Notes under the pieces: generated by a model
The model's input: the letters and a program-made list of their open reading frames with translations, nothing else
The model's database searches: none
What the model was told of the DNA's origin: nothing
Translations under genes and position numbers: made by a program
In this document: positions 31,101 to 42,401 of the stretch, piece after piece
How the letters are laid out: each line of letters opens with the position of its first letter
How positions within the stretch are numbered: the first letter of the stretch is position 1
NCBI GenBank assembly: GCA_016712865.1
Contig: JADJQH010000008.1
Span: 1,178,001 to 1,242,000, forward strand
Length of the DNA stretch: 64,000 nt
Direction of reading: 5' to 3'
Source of the DNA: Dokdonella sp.
Lineage (GTDB): Bacteria; Pseudomonadota; Gammaproteobacteria; Xanthomonadales; Rhodanobacteraceae

Positions 31101-33120
31101 TGCGTTTGCTTCGGGTGGATCGGTCGGCTACGACCACAAGGGCATGGGTATCACCGCCAAGGGTGGCTGGGAGTCGGTCAAGCGCCACTTCCGCGCACTC
31201 GGCCAGGACAGCCAGAGCCAGGACTTCACCTGCGTCGGCATCGGTGACATGTCCGGTGACGTGTTCGGCAATGGCATGCTGCTGTCCAGGCACATTCGCC
31301 TGGTGGCCGCCTTCGACCACCGCCACATCTTCATCGACCCGAATCCGGATGCGGCCAGCAGCTTTGTCGAGCGTGAACGCATGTTCAAGGTACCGCGCTC
31401 GTCCTGGGCCGATTACAACGCCAGCCTGATTTCGGCAGGCGGCGGCATCTATCCGCGCAGCGCCAAGACCATCGACATCTCCGAACAGGCCGCCACCGCG
31501 CTGGGCATCGATGGCGGTGCGCGCAAGATGTCGCCGAGCGAATTGCTCACCGCAATCCTCAAGGCTCCGGTCGACCTGATCTGGAACGGCGGCATCGGAA
31601 CCTACATCAAGGCCAGCGTGGAAACCCAGGCCGATGCCGGTGACCGCGCCAACAATGCCATCCGCATCAATGGCGCCGACGTGCGCGCGCGCATCATTGG
31701 CGAAGGCGGCAACCTCGGCATGACCCAGCGTGGCCGCATCGAGGCGGCGCTCAATGGCGTCCTGCTCAATACAGACTTCATTGACAACTCGGCTGGCGTC
31801 GACACCTCGGATCACGAAGTCAACATCAAGATCCTGCTCAACGACGCCGTGCAACGCGAGGAAATGACGGTGCAGCAGCGCAACGAGCTGTTGCGCGCGA
31901 TGACCGACGAGGTCGAGCGCCTCGTGCTGATCGACAACTATCGCCAGAACGAGGCGATCAGCATCATGGAGCGCATGTCGGTGGCCCGGCTGGGTTCCAA
32001 GCAGCACTTCATCCGCACCCTGGAATCGCAGGGGCTGCTCGACCGTCAGATCGAGTTTCTGCCGAGCGATGCCGAGTTTGCGGAACGCAAGTCGCGCGGC
32101 CTGGGTTTGACCCGCCCAGAACTGGCCATCCTGTTGTCGTACTCGAAGATCGTGCTGTTCCAGCAACTGCTCGACTCGGACGTGCCGGAAGATCCCTATT
32201 TGTCCAAGGAACTGCGCCGCTATTTCCCCGAGCCCTTGCGCGAACGCTTTGCCGAGCACATGGAGCGTCATCGCCTGAAGCGCGAGATCATTGCCACCGC
32301 GGTGACCAACTCCATGGTCAATCGCATGGGTGCGACCTTCGTTCTGCGCATGCAGGAAGACACCGGGCAGTCACCCGCTGCGGTGGCCAAGGCCTTCACC
32401 ATAGCGCGTGAAGTGCTCGATGCACGCTCGTTGTGGGCAGCCATCGAGGAAATGGATGGCAAGGTCGATGGCAATGCGCAGATCGACGCCAATCTCACCA
32501 TCTGGTCCCTGCTGCGCAGCATGACGCGCTGGCTGCTCAACCATCCCGCCGACGTGCAGGATATCGCCGCGGCCGTTGACCGTTATGCGCCGGCCATGGC
32601 CGAGCTGCGCGCAAAGATCGATACCGTCACCAGCGCCAGTGAGCACGCGGTGTTCGAGCGCGGGCGCGTGCGCTGGATCGAGCAGGAATTCCCGGCCGGG
32701 CTGGCCGATCAGCTGGCCTACCTGCCGGCATTGGGCGCGGCACTCGATATTGCCCTGGTCGCCACGGAAAGCGGTGCCTCGGTTGCCCAGGTTGCAACGA
32801 CCTACTACTCAATCGGCGAAGCGCTCAATCTGAAGTGGCTGATGGAAAAGGTCGAGGAGTTGCCGGTGGAGACGCGCTGGCACGCGCACGCACGCGGATC
32901 CCTGCGTGATGAACTGAATGCCCAGCAACGCTCGCTCACCCTGCAGGTGCTCGCGTGGAAATCAAAGGCCGAGGGTGCGGATCGCGTCGCGGCCTGGATG
33001 AGCCGCGACGATGTTGCGCTGAAGACAACCCTGGCCACGCTCAACGACATGCGCAGCCAGGTCGTCATCGACTATCCGATCGTATCGGTGGCCGTGCGCC
33101 GCGTTGCGCAGCTGGTTTGA
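28183..33120 (+). CDS. gdhB: NAD-specific glutamate dehydrogenase, 180-kDa class
   Basis: This enzyme oxidatively deaminates glutamate to 2-oxoglutarate with NAD, mainly for catabolism. The 1645-residue length matches the L_180 class (about 1600 in Pseudomonas). The long N-terminal regulatory part holds ACT-like segments (TDDMPFLVDSVSMAINQ at about 95-115). The catalytic domain begins near residue 820, with GPVARGGLRWSDRREDFRTE, VKNTVIVPVGSKGGFIVKRP and CVGIGDMSGDVFGNGML. The start ATG at 28183 has AAAAGGACG upstream. It is followed by 0.8 kb of repeats. It would connect glutamate released from amino acids or murein peptides to the TCA cycle. Confidence 0.96.
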   Translation: MNAQSAASESKRLEPILSQISAQAGASRQREAQAFAAHFFRHVPADDIATRDPAEWARIAQFMLEFARQRKAQAAKIRVFNPHKDSEGFESGHTLVAVATDDMPFLVDSVSMAINQAGLAAHAVIHPIFTVARDPGGHILNFGDEQGGQGAAESIMLFDIDHVGGAEEIENLRKNISLALDDVRAAVTDWPQMKAKMQAIAEALPTQNLPFDKATLKEAQNFLNWIANDHFTFFGYREYRVAEEAGDEVLKPVGDSGLGIMRGSGSGMAVRSLKTLAATDLDKSGSVGALILTKTNARSRVHRPGHMDYLSVLGFDAKGKPVVEQRFLGMLTSSAYMTPPREVPLLRNNYETILQRSGLKRDSHSGKALRHILDTLPRDEVFQCSTDELFDIAMAVLDLRERARTRLFVRQDRYGRFFSVLAYVPRDRFNTEVRERIEAMLTDHFNAERIDSTVLLDESPLARVHSIVRPKRGASAEWDAGQLDVRIAQIVRNWTDDLREELVARNGEERGNKLAARYGKALPAGYIEKVSPQNAAEDVELAAALEDADDIRLNLYRSQKHPDVLHFKVFRLGGDITLSEVIPLLENLGVSVLTENLYEIQGGGNVITIQDILVRPSRLVFDLDNLREAFQQAFERVWRGDAENDGFNKLVLSAQLDWRQVSILRGYCKYLLQTGVPFSQAYMEQTLASYPDIAGLLVELFEAKFDPQRLDAGADGIGIARTRLREELQILVPQQVQDENPQLIADLVACRDQDRASQIQCILRTLQVLLERVASIDEDRILRGFSAVIRATLRTNFYQRVDGKPHDYTSFKFDPMQLNELPKPRPYREIFVYSPRIEGVHLRFGPVARGGLRWSDRREDFRTEVLGLVKAQMVKNTVIVPVGSKGGFIVKRPPASGERDAVLAEGVACYRSFINGLLDVTDNLVDGKLVHPQDVVRHDDADPYLVVAADKGTATFSDIANAVSAEHDFWLGDAFASGGSVGYDHKGMGITAKGGWESVKRHFRALGQDSQSQDFTCVGIGDMSGDVFGNGMLLSRHIRLVAAFDHRHIFIDPNPDAASSFVERERMFKVPRSSWADYNASLISAGGGIYPRSAKTIDISEQAATALGIDGGARKMSPSELLTAILKAPVDLIWNGGIGTYIKASVETQADAGDRANNAIRINGADVRARIIGEGGNLGMTQRGRIEAALNGVLLNTDFIDNSAGVDTSDHEVNIKILLNDAVQREEMTVQQRNELLRAMTDEVERLVLIDNYRQNEAISIMERMSVARLGSKQHFIRTLESQGLLDRQIEFLPSDAEFAERKSRGLGLTRPELAILLSYSKIVLFQQLLDSDVPEDPYLSKELRRYFPEPLRERFAEHMERHRLKREIIATAVTNSMVNRMGATFVLRMQEDTGQSPAAVAKAFTIAREVLDARSLWAAIEEMDGKVDGNAQIDANLTIWSLLRSMTRWLLNHPADVQDIAAAVDRYAPAMAELRAKIDTVTSASEHAVFERGRVRWIEQEFPAGLADQLAYLPALGAALDIALVATESGASVAQVATTYYSIGEALNLKWLMEKVEELPVETRWHAHARGSLRDELNAQQRSLTLQVLAWKSKAEGADRVAAWMSRDDVALKTTLATLNDMRSQVVIDYPIVSVAVRRVAQLV

Positions 33121-33888
33121 ATTTCGGGGATCGGAGATCGGAGATCGGGGATCGGGGATCGGGGTGCTTTTTTCCACCCTATCCCGCTGGCGTACCCGGC
33201 GGGCATAAAGAAGAGGGCTGGGGTGAGGGTGGTGCGTCACGCAAATGCATAGCCCCGAGCAAGCCCAGGCCCCACCCTCACCCGCGCCCTTGGCGCGACC
33301 TCTCCCGCCAGCGGGAGAGGTGATTCAAGCCACTGAGCACAAGCTGATATTCGAATTCTCCCCTTGCGGAAGAAGAGCCTGCCCCGGACTTGATCCGGGG
33401 TGCCCGCAGGGCGGATGAGGGGCTGTTGTTCCTGCTCTGGGCTTCGAATTCATACTCCCCCCCCCCCGGGGGGGGGGGGGCCCCCCCCCCGCGCCGGGGG
33501 GGCCGCGGGGGGGGGGGGGGGGAGTTCCTGCTCTGGGCTTCGAATTCATTTTCCTTCTCCCCTTGCGGAAGAAGAGCCTGCCCCGGACCTGATCCGGGGT
33601 GCCCGCAGGGCGGATGAGGGGCTGTTGATCCTGCTTCGGGCTTCGAATTCATATTCCTTCTCCCGCTTGCGGGAGAAGGTGCCCGTAGGGCGGATGAGGG
33701 GCGCTTGATCGCGCCGTCATTCTGCGTTGCCAGGGAAGTCGCCGGATTGACTCACCGCCACTGCGGCTCACTCGTTGGGCCTTCGGCTCCGCAGGTACGA
33801 CGAGCTTTCGCCGCAGCAACAGGCAGTGCGCTGTCTGCTACAGTCAGTCCCTCCCGCCGCACACGGCGCATCCGCTGCGAGGTGAAGC
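33121..33888. repeat. Intergenic repeat block after glutamate dehydrogenase
   Basis: The block starts with five near-perfect 7-bp units (GATCGGR) at 33127-33163. A CTCTCCCGC/GCGGGAGAG-type element follows (about 33173-33322), related to that at 40966-41071. Then come three partial copies of a segment containing CCCCTTGCGGAAGAAGAGCC, CCGGACCTGATCCGGGG and GGCTTCGAATTCAT (about 33340-33453, 33523-33640 and 33641-33705). The tract at 33457-33522 is almost pure C then G. I see no gene here. Confidence 0.75.
33457..33522. other. Poly-C/poly-G tract, possible sequence artefact
   Basis: Alternating homopolymer runs of C and G, each about 10 or more bases long, are flanked by direct copies of TCCTGCTCTGGGCTTCGAAT. 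Like the poly-G region at 16398-16574, it is embedded in repeats and may be a gap-filling or base-calling artefact. Confidence 0.65.
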
Positions 33889-34653
33889 GTGAATCAGCGT
33901 ATCGCCCTGGTTGCCAGCCATGGACCCGAGGCCCAGGCCGAGCTTGCCCAGCTCAAGCAGCGCTATGGCGACCACGCGCCAGACCAGGCCGATGTGATCG
34001 TTGCCCTCGGCGGCGACGGGTTCATGCTGCGCACCCTGCATCGCCACCAGAATCTGGGCATTCCGGTGTACGGCATGAAGCTCGGCACGGTCGGCTTCCT
34101 GCTCAATCAGTATCACGCCGATGATCTTGAGGGGCGCATTGCCCGCGCCCAAGCCACGGTTCTGCGTCCGTTGCGCATGCAGGCACATTCCGAATCAGGC
34201 GCCACGGTTGAGGCGCTGGCCTTCAACGAAGTTTCCCTGTTGCGCCAGACCAAGCAGGCGGCGCATGTCCGGGTATCGCTCAACGGTGTGGTGCGCATCG
34301 AGGAATTGATGTGCGATGGCGTGCTGGTGGCGACGCCAGCCGGCTCCACTGCCTACAACCTGTCCGCGCATGGCCCGATCCTGCCGATCGGCTCGCAACT
34401 GCTGGCGATGACCCCGATCAGTCCGTTCCGCCCGCGCCGCTGGCGTGGGGCGGTGCTGCCGGCGACCACCGAAATCAAGTTCGAGATCCTTGATCCGTAT
34501 AAACGCCCGGTCAGCGCCACCGCCGATTCCAACGAAGTGCGCGACGTGATCGAAGTGCTGATCCGGGAATCCACCGAGCACACCACGACCCTGCTGTTCG
34601 ACCCGGAACACAATCTGGAAGAACGCATTCTGAACGAACAGTTTGTGGTCTAG
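33889..34653 (+). CDS. nadK: NAD kinase
   Basis: This enzyme phosphorylates NAD to NADP with ATP or polyphosphate. The 254-residue protein has the GGDG motif (residues 41-44, catalytic Asp43) in [15 protein letters not shown], the NE motif in AFNEVSLLR, and the GD-containing substrate loop [20 protein letters not shown]. It is somewhat shorter than E. coli NadK (292), as in several Xanthomonadales homologues. The start is GTG at 33889, preceded by GAGGTGAA. It lies upstream of the subtilase but with separate function. Confidence 0.93.
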
Positions 34654-34741
34654 GATTGCTGGCGCTCTTCGCATAGAGTGCGCGATTGAGCCGGGCGGGC
34701 CGCACCCGCCGGGATGCACTTCGCCTTTCTGGAGCCTGCCC

Positions 34742-36238
34742 ATGAAGTATTCGCTTCCGCGTGTTGCGCCTTTGGCCTTGGCTTGTGCTGCTGCGATGTC
34801 ACCTGTTTTTGCGGTGGAGGTCGAGCCGGGACTCCGCAGTGAGGCGGAAAGCAACGGATCCGTCGGCACCTTGATCGTGCTGCAGGCCAAGGCGCCAAAG
34901 CAATTGCTGAGCCCGGAAGGGAACTATCTGGAGCGTCGCCGCGAGCTGGTGAACATGCTGCGGGCCACGGCGGAAGTCAGCCAGGCGGAACTGCGCACAT
35001 GGCTCGATGCGCAAGGTATTGCCTATCGCCCGTTCTGGATCGTCAACATGATCGAGGCCGAATTGACTCCAGGCCAGATCGACGCGCTTGAGATGCACCG
35101 CGAAATTTCGGCAATCAAGGCAAACCGTGCCGTTGCGATGCAAGGTCCGGTACTGGGGCCGATTCCGGATGCAGCGGTGGGCAGCGGCATCCATGCGCCG
35201 CAGGCCACCGAGTGGGGCGTCAACAAGGTGCGCGCACCGCTGGTGTGGGCCGAAGGCTTCAATGGGCAAGGCGTGGTGGTGGCGGGACAGGACACCGGCA
35301 TCCGCTGGACCCACAACGCGATCAAGGCCAAGTACCGTGGCTGGAATGGTGTTTCCGCAGATCACAACTACAACTGGCACGATGCCATCCATGAGACGGG
35401 AAGCAGTTGCGGCGCCAATTCTCCGGTGCCTTGCGACGATCATAGTCACGGTAGCCACACGGTCGGCACCATGGTGGGCGACGACGGTGGCAGCAACCAG
35501 GTGGGTGTTGCGCCCGGAGCGAAATGGATCGGTTGCCGCAACATGAATGCAGGCGTCGGTACACCCGCGCGCTACAACGAGTGTGCGGAATGGTTCCTCG
35601 CACCAACCGATCTCAACGGCCAGAACCCTGATCCGGATCGCGCGCCGGATGTGATCAACAATTCTTGGGGCTGCCCTGCCGACGAGGGATGCACAGCCGG
35701 CAACGAGGTGAGGCAAGCCATCGAGAACCTGGTCGCCGGTGGCATCGTGTTTGTCGCCTCGGCAGGCAATGACGGTTCAAGTTGCCAGACGATCTTCAGT
35801 CAACCGGGGACCCTTGATGCCGCCTTCGTCGTGGGCTCGATGACTTCCAGCGACACGATGTCTGGATTCTCCTCGCGCGGACCCGTGCCAGGCTTGGGCG
35901 AGGTCAAGCCGGACGTGATTGCGCCGGGTTCCTCGGTGCGTTCGATCACCAATTCGGGCGACAACTCCTACACTTCGATGAGCGGCACCAGCATGGCCGG
36001 GCCGCATGTGGCGGGCGTGGTTGCGTTGATGATGTCTGTCGACCAATCGCTCAAGGGAGATCCGGCGCGGGTCGAGCAGATTCTCAGGGAAACCTCGGTG
36101 CCGATCAGCAATTCGCAGGTTTGTGGCGGCATTCCCGGAACCACCTTCCCGAACCCGGTGCAGGGCATGGGACGGGTCGATGCATATAACGCATATCTCG
36201 CCTTGGATGACATCTTTGCTGATGACTTCGATGATTGA
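34742..36238 (+). CDS. Secreted subtilisin-like serine protease (S8) with IFADDF tail
   Basis: This is an extracellular or periplasmic serine protease of 498 residues. The signal peptide MKYSLPRVAPLALACAAAMS plus PVFA fixes the start (ATG 34742, GGAG upstream). An I9-like propeptide region spans about 40-132 (LIVLQAKAPK to ISAIKANRAV). The catalytic domain contains Asp184 (VVAGQDTGIRWTH), His236 (DHSHGSHTVGTM), oxyanion Asn343 (ASAGNDG) and Ser417 (SMSGTSMAGPHVAG), so the triad is complete. Cysteines at 223/231 and 349/461 could form disulphides. The C-terminus LDDIFADDFDD resembles tails of two other exported proteins in the window. Confidence 0.93.
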   Translation: MKYSLPRVAPLALACAAAMSPVFAVEVEPGLRSEAESNGSVGTLIVLQAKAPKQLLSPEGNYLERRRELVNMLRATAEVSQAELRTWLDAQGIAYRPFWIVNMIEAELTPGQIDALEMHREISAIKANRAVAMQGPVLGPIPDAAVGSGIHAPQATEWGVNKVRAPLVWAEGFNGQGVVVAGQDTGIRWTHNAIKAKYRGWNGVSADHNYNWHDAIHETGSSCGANSPVPCDDHSHGSHTVGTMVGDDGGSNQVGVAPGAKWIGCRNMNAGVGTPARYNECAEWFLAPTDLNGQNPDPDRAPDVINNSWGCPADEGCTAGNEVRQAIENLVAGGIVFVASAGNDGSSCQTIFSQPGTLDAAFVVGSMTSSDTMSGFSSRGPVPGLGEVKPDVIAPGSSVRSITNSGDNSYTSMSGTSMAGPHVAGVVALMMSVDQSLKGDPARVEQILRETSVPISNSQVCGGIPGTTFPNPVQGMGRVDAYNAYLALDDIFADDFDD

Positions 36239-36256
36239 GGTTGGGCCTCCGGTAAG

Positions 36257-37207
36257 ATGCAGGGCATGGATACCGGAGCGGTAGATTCCGCTGATAGCAC
36301 CGCAACACCCATGCAGCGGTTGGTTGTCGCCATTTCCTCGCGCGCCTTGTTCGATCTCGGCGACAGCCACGAGCTGTTCGAGCGCGAAGGCCTGGATTCC
36401 TATGCGCGCTACCAGATGGCGCACGAGGATGAACTGCTGGCTCCGGGCATTGCGTTCCCGTTGGTGCAAAAGCTGTTGCGCCTCAATTCGCTGGCACCGG
36501 AAGCGCCGCGCGTGGAGGTGATCCTGCTTTCACGCAACTCCGCCGATACCGGCCTGCGCATCTTCAATTCCATCGAACATTACGGCCTCGATATCGTGCG
36601 CGCCGCATTCACCAATGGCGCGCCGACGGCGTCCTATGCACATCCCTTCGGTGCCAACCTGTTCCTGTCGGCCAATGTGGATGACGTGCGCCGCGCGCTG
36701 ACCGCGGGCGTCGCCGCTGCGACCATCCTGCCGTCCAAAGCGCCGGAATTGCCTTCCGAACAGCTGCGCATTGCCTTCGACGGTGACGCGGTGATCTTTG
36801 GCGATGATTCCGAACGCGTATCGCACCATGACGGCATCGAAGCCTTCCACAAGAACGAGATTGAGCGCGTCAACGAACCGCTGGCCGTGGGCCCATTCCG
36901 CAGCTTCCTCGAAGCCCTGCATCGCATCCAGGATGCGTTCCCTATCGAAAATTCGCCGATCCGCACCGCGCTGGTGACGGCACGCTCGGCACCGGCACAC
37001 AAGCGCGTGATCCTGACCCTGCGCAATTGGGGCGTGCGTCTGGATGAAGCCCTGTTTCTCGGCGGACGCTCCAAGGGCCCATTCCTCGAAGCATTTGGCG
37101 CCGATATCTTCTTCGACGATTCCATGCTCAACATAGAATCCGCGCGCCAGCACGTGGCAACCGGCCATGTGCCCCACGGCGTGCATAATGCCGTGGCGAA
37201 TGAATAG
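36257..37207 (+). CDS. Cytosolic 5'-nucleotidase (NT5C1-like family)
   Basis: This is a predicted nucleoside 5'-monophosphate phosphatase of about 316 residues. The conserved blocks LVVAISSRALFDLGDSHELF and LLSRNSADTGLRIFNSIEHY, plus the HAD-type aspartate motif AFDGDAVIFGDDSE and FLGGRSKGPFLEAFGADIFF, match the family that includes vertebrate cytosolic 5'-nucleotidase 1. ATG at 36257 is taken as start; ATGs at 36266 and 36311 are alternatives. The 3' two-thirds is duplicated at 38502-39110, and the last 136 bp differ from the second copy. The 3' end of this copy may therefore have come from the incoming DNA. Confidence 0.88.
   Translation: MQGMDTGAVDSADSTATPMQRLVVAISSRALFDLGDSHELFEREGLDSYARYQMAHEDELLAPGIAFPLVQKLLRLNSLAPEAPRVEVILLSRNSADTGLRIFNSIEHYGLDIVRAAFTNGAPTASYAHPFGANLFLSANVDDVRRALTAGVAAATILPSKAPELPSEQLRIAFDGDAVIFGDDSERVSHHDGIEAFHKNEIERVNEPLAVGPFRSFLEALHRIQDAFPIENSPIRTALVTARSAPAHKRVILTLRNWGVRLDEALFLGGRSKGPFLEAFGADIFFDDSMLNIESARQHVATGHVPHGVHNAVANE
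36599..37207 (+). repeat. Direct repeat, copy 1 (3' part of 5'-nucleotidase gene)
   Basis: This 609-bp stretch matches 38502-39110 without indels at a constant offset of 1903 bp. The first 473 bp (to 37071) are identical. The last 136 bp carry about two dozen substitutions, mostly at third codon positions. The pair flanks the island at 37208-38501. Confidence 0.95.
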
Positions 37208-37684
37208 CGCCTTCGACACCAGGGAACTCGAACATCACAACGGCACAATTCATTGGCAATGACATGGACTGGCAGAGCCAGTCTCTCAGCGAGTCTAATA
37301 CCAAGGCCGAATCTGGATGGGTCGTTTCTCCGCAGATTCAGATGAGGAATGTCAGGGGTCAAATGGGTTGTCCGAGGTCAAGTTTACCTTTGCCATTGGT
37401 TCGATAGGTCAGGTAGTATGATCGAATTGTTGCGTTTGTAGGTGTATGCAATGCTGCACTTACTCGCCCAGAAATTGCTTCGCGCCGATGTGTGTGCGAT
37501 CAGGAGCCGCACTACTCGTCACGGGTGTGGGTCGAGCCCGGAACGCTTGAATCTTGTTGTCAGTAGCGGCAATTGAAGTGCGTAGTTTTTGTTTGATCGA
37601 TAGCAATCAGGTGCGGAACGGATTCGGATCCTGGCATTCACCGAGGACAGCAATTGAGTCGTGGTATCCAAAGGGAGGTGAGAT
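37208..37684. other. AT-richer island segment upstream of the unknown gene
   Basis: This 477-bp stretch is clearly less GC-rich than its surroundings, and I see no recognisable gene. It contains GTCAGGGGTCAAATGGG and TCAAGTTTACCTTTGCC, short sequences of a kind seen beside insertion elements and REP-associated transposase genes, but no transposase is encoded. It ends in a strong ribosome site (GGGAGGTGA at 37671-37679) for the next gene. Confidence 0.5.
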
Positions 37685-38587
37685 ATGATCATTACAAGGT
37701 TTTGGAGATTGGTCACGCTACTGCTCCTTTTCACATCTGTAGTTTCGACGGACGCGTGGAGCAAGACCGGCGAAGAGCTTTTCAGGGAGTTGCGTCACCA
37801 AGTTGAAGTCCAGCGGCAGGGTATGAACTCGGAGGAACTTGAATCAGTCGGCAATAGCATTGGGCGAGCATTCTTTGCTCCATCGGGTAATCAGTTGACG
37901 GAGTGTTCGCAGGATGCTGTGTCGGCTCTCCTTGATGGTCGCCTTGTATCAACTAGCGGTGAACTGAGTTGGTATATCTACAATGCATTGTATGTGCCCG
38001 AGATACTCCCGGTGGGTAAGAACTACTGCATCTATCTGAAGAAGCCGATCGCGCGCGCGCTAACGGTTGAGGAAGCTCGAGATTTGTTGGTGGCGTGGAG
38101 ACTCCCTGCTTTTCCGCAGTACGTTCCGGGTCAAGAGGATAGACAGCGGGCAGAGGAGCAATTTGCGGCCTTGCGGGACGAAGCGAGAAGGTTTCGCAGC
38201 AATTGGAGTGCGGAGAGACTATCGAGGTTGGATGCCGTGGCGAATTCTTTTGTGGAGTGTATCGATGATGATCTAGAAAAAGAGAATGTGCTGAAAGAAC
38301 TCCCTAAACAAAAAGAGAATATAGAAGCAATAAATGGGGTGGAGTATGTATGGACTACCGCGCTGGTGCGATCAGCGCCAGGCGGGGCTGGAATATGCAT
38401 CTACATTCGAAGTCCTCTGCATCGTGGCCTTAGTCTTGACGAGGTGCGCGACTTCTTGACCCTCAGCCAGACGCAAGAATTTTCATCCGATGATTTCGTG
38501 CCGCGCCGCATTCACCAATGGCGCGCCGACGGCGTCCTATGCACATCCCTTCGGTGCCAACCTGTTCCTGTCGGCCAATGTGGATGA
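37685..38587 (+). CDS. Unknown exported protein with internal domain duplication, 3' end fused to duplicated DNA
   Basis: I do not recognise this 300-residue protein. It has a signal peptide (RFWRLVTLLLLFTSVVSTDA) and two homologous halves. The first ends YVPEILPVGKNYCIYLKKP then ARALTVEEARDLL; the second ends RSAPGGAGICIYIRSPLHRG then LSLDEVRDFL. Each half has the CIY core and a closing L-x-x-x-E-x-R-D-x-L motif. AT-rich codons (for example AAA, ATA and GAA runs near 38276-38330) set it apart from its neighbours and suggest transfer. From about 38502 the frame enters the duplicated 5'-nucleotidase sequence out of frame, so the last 28 residues are probably not native and the original end is lost. 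Confidence 0.7.
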   Translation: MIITRFWRLVTLLLLFTSVVSTDAWSKTGEELFRELRHQVEVQRQGMNSEELESVGNSIGRAFFAPSGNQLTECSQDAVSALLDGRLVSTSGELSWYIYNALYVPEILPVGKNYCIYLKKPIARALTVEEARDLLVAWRLPAFPQYVPGQEDRQRAEEQFAALRDEARRFRSNWSAERLSRLDAVANSFVECIDDDLEKENVLKELPKQKENIEAINGVEYVWTTALVRSAPGGAGICIYIRSPLHRGLSLDEVRDFLTLSQTQEFSSDDFVPRRIHQWRADGVLCTSLRCQPVPVGQCG

Positions 38588-39110
38588 CGTGCGCCGCGCG
38601 CTGACCGCGGGCGTCGCCGCTGCGACCATCCTGCCGTCCAAAGCGCCGGAATTGCCTTCCGAACAGCTGCGCATTGCCTTCGACGGTGACGCGGTGATCT
38701 TTGGCGATGATTCCGAACGCGTATCGCACCATGACGGCATCGAAGCCTTCCACAAGAACGAGATTGAGCGCGTCAACGAACCGCTGGCCGTGGGCCCATT
38801 CCGCAGCTTCCTCGAAGCCCTGCATCGCATCCAGGATGCGTTCCCTATCGAAAATTCGCCGATCCGCACCGCGCTGGTGACGGCACGCTCGGCACCGGCA
38901 CACAAGCGCGTGATCCTGACCCTGCGCAATTGGGGCGTGCGTCTGGATGAAGCCCTGTTTCTCGGCGGACGCTCGAAAGGCCCATTCCTCGAAGCATTTG
39001 GCGCCGACATCTTCTTTGACGACTCCATGCTCAACATTGAATCTGCACGTCAGCACGTGGCCAGCGGCCATGTACCCCACGGCGTGCACAACCCGGCCCC
39101 ACGGAATTGA
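38503..39110 (+). pseudogene. 5'-nucleotidase fragment (second copy, N-terminal 114 residues missing)
   Basis: This is an in-frame copy of residues 115-316 of the preceding 5'-nucleotidase. It retains the AFDGDAVIFGDDSE and LGGRSKGPF blocks but lacks the N-terminal conserved blocks. It could be translated from ATG 38490 as a truncated protein, but activity is unlikely. Its 3' end differs from copy 1 and overlaps the start of the next gene (TGATG at 39108-39112), so this copy carries what looks like the original chromosomal 3' end. Confidence 0.85.
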
Positions 39111-39604
39111 TGGGCATCGAGGATTTCATTTCGGTGCGACTGGTCGATGCCGGCAAGGCGCTGGCCGATCCGATCTTCCAGAGGCGATATCGCGCCGAGG
39201 CTCCGGATTTTCCGATCCATGTGCTTGCCTTTCATCGCGCGGAAGATGGCAGCGAAACGCCGGTTTGCTACATCCATTTCACCGAACAAGGTGACTTGCT
39301 GCTCGGTGGCGGAGCCTGCGTGGATGATCGCGTGCTGCGTCGCATGCCCGCCACGGCGCGTGCGGCGATACGCGCCGCCGGCGGGTTGTATCAGCATGCG
39401 CTGGCCTGGTCGGTCCGCAACCTCGGTCCGCAGACCAAGGCCATCTTCGGTTTCTGCGGAGATGCACTGGCTGAGCGCGCCGATATTGCGGTGGGCTTCA
39501 AGCACACCATGCATCCAAAATTGCTGGTGTATTTCACCCGGGATCTCGAACAGCACGAGCGTGATCGCCTGATCGCCGAAGCCCACGCGGTCGGGCCGTT
39601 TTAG
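39110..39604 (+). CDS. Conserved hypothetical protein, coupled to 5'-nucleotidase
   Basis: This 164-residue cytoplasmic protein has no signal peptide or membrane segment. Visible features are LLLGGGACVDDRVLRRMPAT, IRAAGGLYQHALAWSVRNLG and VGFKHTMHPKLLVYFTRDL. I do not recognise the family. The ATG at 39110 overlaps the stop of the 5'-nucleotidase fragment, so before the duplication the two were probably a translationally coupled pair, which hints at a nucleotide-related role. After the duplication it sits behind the truncated copy and may have lost its normal coupling. Confidence 0.7.
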   Translation: MGIEDFISVRLVDAGKALADPIFQRRYRAEAPDFPIHVLAFHRAEDGSETPVCYIHFTEQGDLLLGGGACVDDRVLRRMPATARAAIRAAGGLYQHALAWSVRNLGPQTKAIFGFCGDALAERADIAVGFKHTMHPKLLVYFTRDLEQHERDRLIAEAHAVGPF

Positions 39605-40014
39605 ACGATGGCAACGGTTCGGCCCTGAAGGGTCTCCTACAACAGCGGCTTCGGTAGGAGCCCCGAAACAGGGGCAAGTCCCAAAATGGGATAGACGCCC
39701 CTTCGTCGGGCTCACCACGAACGGTAGCCGCTTGATCAGCATTGCCCAAAAACCGTTCGTGGTGAGGAGGCGACGTCGAGACCGAAGGTCGAGCGCCGCC
39801 GTCTCGAACCACGCGTCAACCCGCTCTGTCGACCATCAAGGCAACGCTGATCAAGTCCTGCTTGTCCGAAGCCCATCTACAAATGAGCGCATGGCACCTT
39901 CGTTCCGTTCATGGTTCGACAGGCCTGTCCTGAGCACAGTCGAAGGACTCACCACGAACGGAATTTTCTTGCTCAGTGCTGGTTGACCGGCAACATAGAA
40001 TCTCAGGACAGGCT
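39605..40014. repeat. Mixed REP and GGTTCGAC-type repeat block
   Basis: Several dispersed repeats lie here. They include GGGTCTCCTACA-type REP units, GGGGCAAGTCCCAAAATGGG, CTCACCACGAACGG at about 39710, 39755 (inverse) and 39949, and GGTTCGACAGGCCTGTCCTG near 39910. The same CACCACGAACGG core builds the tandem array at 57708. No gene is supported. Confidence 0.7.
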
Positions 40015-40917
40015 TCAGGCGTTTATCCCCTTTTGGGGGCTTGCTCTCTTTTCAGGGCGATGCTTTTTAGCAGGACCCATCGGCCCTGAAGGGCCTCCTA
40101 CACAAGAATGGAGCGCAACGCGTCTGGCGATTTCCAGTGCCAGCCGCAGATGTAGCGGGGGCAGGTTCCAGCGATCGGATTGCTGGGTAACCGGGGTGGC
40201 ACCATCACCCATCGCTGCATGTATTCCGTGCCCGGCGGTAGCGTCGGGCAGGTACTCGCTGCGCAGGTACTCGGGCACGTGGCTGAACGGGTAGCAGAAG
40301 ATGCGCGTGCGCCGGGGTGCGATGCGATCGTTGATGTAGCGGGTGGCGGCAGCGATTTCGGCCTCGGCTCGGGTGCGGTTGTTGACATCGAGAAAGGAGC
40401 CACGCGCCAGGCCGTCGATACCGGGTGTGTCCAGGCAGGGATGGTTGTGGTCCCAACTGTGGTTTTCGATCGCCATCAGGCCCGACTCGTTGGCCTCGCG
40501 CCACCAGTCCTCGCCCATCCAGCCCAATCCAGCCAGGCAAGCCTGATCCATGCGCTCGCGGGCCTCGGGTGAGGCGATGACAAAACTCGTCAGGTGCAGA
40601 TCGGGTTGCGCCTGTGCGCCACGCTCGGCAATGAAGTCCTGCAGGCAATTGAACAGGCTGCGTTGCGGGCCGTGCGTCGGGTGGTCGAGATCATGGAAAT
40701 CGAAGGCCGAGCCGTCATCGCAGGTCAGGGCCACGCAGCCGGTCAGATCGCGGTCCGCCGCGCCGATCACCTGGTCCACCACCCAGTGCAGGGGCACGAT
40801 GCGCAGGCCGAGATCGTCGATTAGGCGCAGGTCGGCGGCAAAGGCGACATGATCGTTGGTCGCGTATTCGTTTCCGGCAATGTTGACCGCGTGGTAGGCA
40901 AGAACGGGGACGCGCAT
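40015..40917 (-). CDS. Polysaccharide deacetylase (NodB-like) family protein
   Basis: This is a predicted carbohydrate esterase-type or related deacetylase of about 300 residues. It opens MRVPVLAYHAVNIAGNEYAT, and ALTCDDGSAFDFHDLDHPTH is the DD motif region of the NodB domain. ENHSWDHNHPCL gives the HxxxxH-type metal-binding histidines, and IFCYPFSHV an R/YP motif. No signal peptide is present. I start it at ATG 40917; an extended frame to 41079 is repeat DNA. The last 35 residues (after about VALHS) are encoded by REP-type repeat sequence, so the native stop appears to have been lost or shifted. Confidence 0.85.
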   Translation of the reverse strand: MRVPVLAYHAVNIAGNEYATNDHVAFAADLRLIDDLGLRIVPLHWVVDQVIGAADRDLTGCVALTCDDGSAFDFHDLDHPTHGPQRSLFNCLQDFIAERGAQAQPDLHLTSFVIASPEARERMDQACLAGLGWMGEDWWREANESGLMAIENHSWDHNHPCLDTPGIDGLARGSFLDVNNRTRAEAEIAAATRYINDRIAPRRTRIFCYPFSHVPEYLRSEYLPDATAGHGIHAAMGDGATPVTQQSDRWNLPPLHLRLALEIARRVALHSCVGGPSGPMGPAKKHRPEKRASPQKGINA

Positions 40918-40965
40918 GAGAAGAACCAATGGAAAGGGGACAGGATACCCTGCAACATTGCGTTT

Positions 40966-41160
40966 CCCCTCTCCCGCTGGCGGGAGAGGGCAGGGTGAGG
41001 GTGGACGACATGGCGAAGCACCACCCTCACCCGCCGCTGCGCGTCGACCTCTCCCGCGAGCGGGAGAGGTGGTATCCATCTCCGGTTGGCCTGGCTCGCA
41101 TTTACCCTCTCCCGCTGGCGGGAGAGGGCAGGGTGAGGGTGGTCGGCATGGCCAAGCACC
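40966..41160. repeat. CTCTCCCGC/GCGGGAGAG dispersed repeat, one full and one partial copy
   Basis: The element has CCTCTCCCGCTGGCGGGAGA then GGGCAGGGTGAGGGTGG on the left and CCACCCTCACCCGC to CTCTCCCGCGAGCGGGAGAG on the right (40966-41071). Its left half is repeated at 41104-41160. Hairpins at both ends face inward. It fills most of the 311 bp before gcdH. Confidence 0.8.
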
Positions 41161-41228
41161 ACCGCGCGGTGTCGGTTTTGCGTCGCAGCATTTACAATGG
41201 AGCGCTTTGTCCTACCCGGAATCCCACC

Positions 41229-42401
41229 ATGGCTGCCACCCCGCTCAATCCCTTTGATCTTTACGATGTCCGCTCGCTGCTCAGCGAGGATGAGCGCGCG
41301 GTACAGGACGCCGTGGCGCGCTTCACCGATGAGCGCGTGATTCCCATCATTGGCGACTGTTTCGACAAGGGCGTGTTCCCGAAGGAATTGATCTCCGAAA
41401 TGGCCGAACTGGGCCTGCTCGGTGCAACCTTGCCGACCGAATACGGTTGCTCGGGACTCAACGGGGTCAGCTATGGCCTGATCTGCCAGGAACTGGAGCG
41501 CGGTGATTCCGGCATCCGCAGCTTTGCCTCGGTGCAGTCCTCGTTGTGCATGTATCCGATCTACGCCTATGGCAACGAAGAGCAGCGCAAGCGCTGGTTG
41601 CCCGACATGGCGGCAGGCAAGGTCATCGGCTGCTTCGGCTTGACCGAGCCGCAGGGCGGCTCCGATCCGGCCAGCATGAAGACCTACGCGAAGAAAGACG
41701 GCGCGGACTGGATCATCAACGGTTCCAAGATGTGGATCACCAACGGCAACCTGGCCGACATCGCCATCGTCTGGGCGCTGACCGATGACGGCATCCAGGG
41801 CTTTGTGGTGGAGAAGGACTTTGCCGGCTTCACCGCGCAGGAAATCCACAAGAAGATGAGCCTGCGTGCCTCGGTCACCTCGGCGCTGTTTTTCGACAAC
41901 GTGCGCGTGCCAGACGCCAACCGCTTGCCCAACGTGAAGGGCCTGAAGGGGCCGCTCGGCTGCCTGACCCAGGCCCGATACGGCATCACCTGGGGCCCGA
42001 TCGGCGCCGCCATCGCCTGCTTCAGCGAAGTACTGGAGTATTCCAAGAGCCGCATACTGTTCAAGCAGCCGATTGCCTCGCGCCAGGCGGTCCAGCTCAA
42101 GCTGGCGGACATGGCACGGCGCATCACCATGGCGCAGTTGCTCTCACTGCAATTGGGGCGCCTCAAGGATGCCGGCACGATGCAGCCCACCCAGGTCTCT
42201 CTGGCCAAGTGGAACAACTGCCGCATGGCCATCGACATCGCCCGCGAGGCACGCGACATCCTCGGCGGCGCTGGCATCACCACCGAACATTGTCCGATCC
42301 GGCATGCATTGAACCTGGAATCGGTGATCACCTACGAAGGCACGGAAACCGTGCATCAACTGGTGGTTGGTCGCGAAGTCACCGGCATCAACGCGTTCTG
42401 A
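41229..42401 (+). CDS. gcdH: Glutaryl-CoA dehydrogenase
   Basis: This enzyme oxidatively decarboxylates glutaryl-CoA to crotonyl-CoA in lysine and tryptophan catabolism. The 390-residue protein has the acyl-CoA dehydrogenase fold with GLTEPQGGSDPASMKTYAKK and the glutaryl-CoA-specific C-terminus ITYEGTETVHQLVVGREVTG. The catalytic Glu370 falls at the same number as in human GCDH. Start ATG at 41229. The aldehyde dehydrogenase at 54344-55876 would supply an upstream step of the same pathway. Confidence 0.95.
   Translation: MAATPLNPFDLYDVRSLLSEDERAVQDAVARFTDERVIPIIGDCFDKGVFPKELISEMAELGLLGATLPTEYGCSGLNGVSYGLICQELERGDSGIRSFASVQSSLCMYPIYAYGNEEQRKRWLPDMAAGKVIGCFGLTEPQGGSDPASMKTYAKKDGADWIINGSKMWITNGNLADIAIVWALTDDGIQGFVVEKDFAGFTAQEIHKKMSLRASVTSALFFDNVRVPDANRLPNVKGLKGPLGCLTQARYGITWGPIGAAIACFSEVLEYSKSRILFKQPIASRQAVQLKLADMARRITMAQLLSLQLGRLKDAGTMQPTQVSLAKWNNCRMAIDIAREARDILGGAGITTEHCPIRHALNLESVITYEGTETVHQLVVGREVTGINAF

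Follow-up and report, generated by a model that had tools for sequence, protein, structure and literature searches.

Some integrative elements target protein-coding genes and restore the 3' end of the gene into which they insert. Site-specific integrases leave a short core, and CIME-like islands provide the model for an integrase-dependent relic that has restored the 3' end of its target. In homology-facilitated illegitimate recombination, the illegitimate join usually deletes recipient DNA, a feature that is not strictly defining, and the duplicating form of the process is the less usual one. The process is known in Acinetobacter, Pseudomonas stutzeri and Streptococcus pneumoniae, and is described as the joining of incoming DNA at one end by homology and at the other illegitimately, with little homology (PMC2884548, PMC3240628). 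During interchromatid integration in S. pneumoniae, a short donor fragment bridges two sites on sister chromatids and the DNA between them is duplicated; there, the second pairing proceeds via a chromosomal repeat and the duplications span ~100-900 kb (PMC3784515). For the orphan effector/immunity arrays of T6SS/Rhs loci, a mechanism akin to homology-facilitated illegitimate recombination has been proposed (PMC5361080).

The locus described here lies in a 64-kb stretch of DNA, referred to as the window (C8:1178001-1242000), of a 3.75-Mb, 8-contig genome of the Dokdonella group (G000); coordinates are given within the window, and the features of the locus all lie on its forward strand. A gene for a 5'-nucleotidase is followed by an island and by a second, 5'-truncated copy of the same gene, and the locus most probably represents a clear, naturally occurring case of recombination by a known process.

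The duplicated nucleotidase end

The island is flanked by a direct repeat of 609 bp (copy 1, 36599-37207; copy 2, 38502-39110; offset 1903), and near-identity over this length far exceeds chance. Between the copies lie 1,294 bp of AT-richer DNA (37208-38501), with a GC content of 51.1% vs 62.1% for the window, which confirms the 609-bp repeat around AT-richer DNA that had been noted in a preliminary description. The first 473 bp of the copies (36599-37071 and 38502-38974) show zero differences, and all 27 differences are confined to the final 136 bp (20%; 37072-37207 in copy 1). The preliminary description had reported 473 identical bp followed by ~18% divergence, mostly at synonymous sites; the identity and the abrupt change stand, but the figure for the tail, while close, hides an uneven spread, as the first 109 bp (37072-37180) hold 12 differences (11%), 11 of them synonymous, and the remaining 27 bp hold 15. 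At the codon level, 20 of the 46 codons of the tail differ, 14 synonymously (stop included), and five of the six non-synonymous codons fall within the last five sense codons.

The upstream gene (36257-37207) encodes a full-length, 316-aa 5'-nucleotidase of the PF06189 family (Pfam E 3.5e-126), whose relatives are found in Dokdonella and other Rhodanobacteraceae/Lysobacterales. In the downstream copy, codons 1-114 are missing; it runs from codon 115 to the stop, and its TGA overlaps the ATG of the following gene (TGATG; 39107-39604), for which searches of Pfam, NCBIfam and PADLOC returned no match. The nearest relative, G003, is island-free; its nucleotidase directly adjoins the same downstream gene, in the same order and with the same overlap. 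Beyond this gene, the window carries short intergenic repeats at 39619-40102 (families D2 and D3, two of each), and within the intergenic stretch 33278-33652 the same phrases recur in the six-frame translations, suggesting a small repeat array.

At the 27 diagnostic columns of the tail, G003 agrees with copy 2 at 19 and with copy 1 at 5. In an identity profile computed over 100-bp intervals against four relatives, G003 is the closest across the upstream S8 peptidase stretch, most of the nucleotidase and copy 2, and 36599 shows no break. The exceptions are 36400-36500, where G003 is the least close (81% vs 83-87%), and the interval at 39202 in the downstream gene, where G004 exceeds it (81% vs 76%). 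In the copy-1 tail (interval at 37100), the lead of G003 is gone and all four relatives stand at 87-89%. Because G003 has both the tail of copy 2 and the TGATG overlap, we read the tail of copy 2 as native and that of copy 1 as foreign. The comparison supports two earlier proposals: that the upstream gene, native up to ~37071, stays full length with a foreign 3' end, and that the 5'-truncated copy keeps the native 3' end overlapping the next gene. The site is empty in G003, and each of the nine genomes of the genus searched besides that of the window has a single nucleotidase match and no cargo relative (completeness being 85-90% in three of the ten genus genomes, G003 among them, and <90% in two of the nine others). 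When 37072-38498 was used as a query against 60 genomes, the nucleotidase tail was the only part represented among the matches listed outside the locus itself. Together with the GC content, this is consistent with an origin of the segment 37208-38501 as DNA downstream of the donor's nucleotidase.

A perfect repeat of 473 bp is a classic trap in short-read assembly, and the arrangement could be pictured as an artefact or as a chimera of two strains. However, the locus is embedded in a contig of 1.35 Mb, the assembly comprises 8 contigs and its estimated contamination is 0.13%, and a misjoin would need to have produced an intact-frame gene by accident; this explanation is given very little credence.

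Cargo of the island

The sole substantial gene of the island (37685-38587) starts behind GGGAGGTGAG, which we take to be Shine-Dalgarno-like, and its product has a presumably signal-peptide-like N-terminus and two C...CIY...EEARDL domains. This main ORF has no match in Pfam, NCBIfam, PADLOC or PHROGs, and Pfam likewise has none for five other ORFs, smaller or overlapping, that lie within the island or extend across it. The single-sequence AlphaFold model of the cargo ORF is unusable (mean pLDDT 39). Relatives of the cargo were found in two of the 397 other genomes of the order that were searched (three of 398 with its own genome), and a pattern scan of genome contigs for close relatives gave 94 stretches, none of which was confirmed. 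In one of the two genomes, G348, a 935-aa protein begins with the cargo domains, which make up approximately its first 260 residues. In the other, G376, they constitute a separate ORF, the end of which overlaps a 692-aa ORF; when the latter is aligned with the remainder of the G348 protein, 235 of 692 columns (34%) are identical. This second part carries the motifs TAAH...D...G(N/S)SG(G/A)P, and on account of these H, D and S motifs we take it to be a trypsin-like secreted protease; searches of Pfam (E up to 0.1) and of PDB sequences gave no match for it. By this comparison, the cargo ORF corresponds to the N-terminal portion of what is putatively the precursor of a secreted protease.

The alignment of the window ORF with the G376 ORF extends until ~20 residues short of the end of the latter, where the window ORF enters nucleotidase DNA in another frame. 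Because of this premature end, we infer that the island probably ends inside the donor gene, which the right junction would cut. We regard the island as a passenger fragment and not as a self-mobile element. A mobile-element origin of the cargo was considered and rejected: no relatives were found in plasmids or viral contigs, and no defence, phage or NCBI family matched. A reading of the cargo as an effector or immunity protein was likewise dropped, because its domains are fused to, or adjoin, a protease-like protein in G348 and G376.

Junctions and proposed mechanism

The two junctions appear to differ in kind. The left one lies inside homologous sequence, where the nucleotidase switches from native to foreign at or left of 37072. 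At the right one (38492-38501), GATTTCGTG plus one C stands against the native GATATCGTG just upstream of 36599, and 8 of 10 positions match with a one-base offset, a short microhomology, at this single junction, that was equalled by 550 of 200000 random breakpoint pairs, for a comparison length set after the junction had been seen. No longer homology is found at this junction, as read from the recipient side and with the donor side deduced. Since the 473 bp of the two copies are identical, they show that native sequence was duplicated.

The locus probably arose when donor DNA, anchored by homology on one side only, was captured and a short stretch of native DNA was duplicated backwards; the simplest scheme has one homologous join and, upstream of it, an illegitimate one. 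DNA of a congener, of which ~1.4 kb would have been acquired, would have entered the cell, perhaps by natural transformation, and the donor nucleotidase tail would have paired with the native gene and recombined with it at or left of 37072. The other donor end, presumably a break inside the protease-precursor gene, would have been joined to a native sister copy through ~8-9 bp of microhomology. To judge by the repeat, this illegitimate join would lie upstream of the crossover by no more than 473 bp. The process would correspond to homology-facilitated illegitimate recombination, or to an equivalent event in which the template was switched to donor DNA and back again, with the same product sequence. 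Owing to the position of the join upstream of the crossover, the outcome would be a duplication of native DNA and not a deletion, and the gene would have survived, as would its overlap with the following gene. We infer uptake of the donor DNA; genes for ComEC and DprA are present but say little about competence, because the same families match 10 and 11, respectively, of 14 control genomes, E. coli included.

The preliminary description had proposed that DNA of a different strain integrated by homologous recombination. Foreign DNA and a homologous entry in the nucleotidase are borne out, but only one end looks homologous, and a plain single crossover of a divergent circle is unsupported because the 473 bp left of the crossover should diverge too (~52 differences expected at 11%, 0 observed). 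A Campbell-type event can be reconciled with this identity if a circle (a plasmid or a ligated fragment) carrying a 609-bp nucleotidase fragment and the cargo was inserted by a single crossover and the 473 bp then underwent gene conversion. Such an event would give the right order (full gene, island, 5'-truncated copy) and the same product, and conversion up to the heterology boundary at 38502 would be mechanistically reasonable. Nevertheless, the cargo has no relatives in the plasmids and viral contigs searched and a cut cargo gene would be odd for a circle, and we regard this course of events as rather unlikely. The identical 473 bp would also be accounted for if a native partial tandem duplication had come first and a foreign segment had then been placed between the copies by homologous recombination. 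This scheme requires two events, still leaves the right end non-homologous and has no intermediate in the nine other genus genomes; its probability is judged to be low indeed.

Other 3'-end duplications and known systems

In a survey of the family, the nucleotidase was found in 228 of 233 genomes, with two matches in four of them: in G413 and G473 the gene is split over contigs, while G000 and G361 have a genuine extra copy. Within a set of 99 genomes, G093 has the gene split over contigs, G084 has a second match of 35% identity, and G074 has two partial matches on separate contigs with overlapping residues. A permissive search of the 233 genomes with the C-terminus of the nucleotidase (E up to 0.5) gave too much noise to be usable.

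G361 belongs to another genus (g18) and carries a full nucleotidase, a 906-bp island and, behind it, 107 bp that repeat the 3' end of the gene with 84% identity (L060, G361:C4:1202831-1204773). It is the one further island at this gene that a search of the kind suggested in the preliminary description brought to light, with a different boundary and an apparently opposite polarity. The island contains a 235-aa lipoprotein-like ORF on the opposite strand, for which the NCBIfam match is weak and below the cut-off, and it has no match in 20 other g18 loci. When the two tails were compared with 20 g18 relatives, that of the full gene was closer in 15, that of the fragment in 3, and two were ties. 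The tail of the full gene thus looks the more native, opposite to the situation in the window, unless the fragment has decayed. The two loci share their architecture, and not demonstrably their history.

This second island bears on whether the window holds the relic of an integrase-dependent island that restored the 3' end of its target gene. The overall topology is the same, with the gene restored, and a second island lies at the same gene. However, the boundaries differ, lying at codon 115 in the window and at ~codon 274 in G361, the repeat is a 473-bp perfect block and not a short core, and the cargo ORF is cut. The absence of an integrase claimed earlier holds, as there is no integrase-like ORF by Pfam among the main ORF and the five smaller ones of the island; there is also no tRNA in the window and no Rfam family within 33000-42000. 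An integrase-dependent relic is considered highly improbable, and the likeness to integrative elements noted in the preliminary description proves superficial.

A similar structure was found at a different gene. In G376, 135 bp from the 3' end of that gene are present twice (95% identical), and the cargo relative and the protease ORF are enclosed by the two copies (L061:5874-9346). This flanking gene runs off the contig and is without a usable family match; we take it to be GmrSD/DUF262-like from its motifs. G348 shows no flanking gene-end duplicate within the 10.7 kb examined. At L138:4855-8800 (PS02065), an extra, 67% identical copy of a two-gene module lies in tandem downstream of the nucleotidase, and the second module looks, by a weak resemblance, as if it were headed by the last 31 bp of the nucleotidase. 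These cases suggest recurrence. The nucleotidase end has been used in two genera (window and G361, with polarities that look opposite), L138 may be a third genome of this kind, two of the three members of the cargo family lie inside 3'-end-duplication islands (window and G376), and the cargo kinds comprise protease precursors and lipoprotein-like proteins. It is conceivable, if doubtful, that conserved gene 3' ends in this bacterial family may act as recurrent, integrase-free docking points for small accessory genes with secreted products, donor DNA being anchored by the gene end and added behind it, and each event leaving a 3'-end scar; the polarity seen in G361 makes this slightly less probable.

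As a control, direct repeats of at least 80 bp and at least 75% identity, 200-6000 bp apart, were sought in 1.207 Mb, made up of the 64-kb window and of 381 kb from each of three genomes (G000, G361 and G005). The scan gave 26 pairs, two of which are the nucleotidase loci that had prompted the choice of G000 and G361. Several of the other 24 touch the end of a mechanical ORF. Those inspected comprise an Rhs-like locus, a cluster of transposase repeats (presumably REP-transposase-like, from its motifs), tandem arrays, paralogous genes and dispersed intergenic repeats; none of the inspected pairs is a gene-3'-end duplicate around an island, a few of the 24 being left unclassified. Since a scan of 1.207 Mb fixes the base rate too poorly, a hot spot at the nucleotidase is not claimed. 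Repeats of other kinds occur in the same genome as the window. At G000:C8:942988-947849 (L121), which we take to be Rhs-like from its motifs, a 1.7-kb segment is present twice (98%); the tips of the two copies differ, and between them lies a small ORF that may be an immunity gene, much as in the classical orphan-tip arrangement. A cluster of repeated, partly truncated ORFs at G000:C8:846776-850261 (L116) presumably encodes REP-associated transposases, judging by motifs, and G000:C8:862685-863790 (L117) is a tandem array with a period of ~93 bp.

One-sided, homology-anchored captures are usually hard to recognise, as the anchor leaves little trace. Here the joins are recorded by the divergence of the tail, by the native duplication of 473 bp and by the cut cargo gene. 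The locus illustrates how a core gene can acquire a passenger along with a foreign 3' end and yet keep its full length, with the overlapping neighbour left intact. Its signature, a duplicate of a gene 3' end around a small island, can be counted across genomes.

Among known systems, the integrative elements that restore a protein-coding 3' end offer the same outcome, in which the gene is whole with a foreign 3' end and its old end is displaced, but no integrase and no short att core are seen here, and the repeat is perfect over 473 bp. Plain Campbell-type insertion differs in the 0 of 473 differences left of the switch, a discrepancy that gene conversion could rescue. As in the T6SS/Rhs arrays, foreign DNA displaces a native 3' part that is left downstream. 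Unlike those arrays, the target is a housekeeping PF06189 nucleotidase and not a variable-tip toxin, and no effector/immunity pair was identified at the island, the cargo of which has no family match. Interchromatid integration in S. pneumoniae pairs a second time through a chromosomal repeat, whereas the right junction of the window offers microhomology only, and 473 bp were duplicated. With homology-facilitated illegitimate recombination, the locus shares one homologous end, and its other end, as read from the recipient side, would be consistent with an illegitimate join; the locus departs from the usual outcome of that process in that the recipient DNA was duplicated and not deleted.
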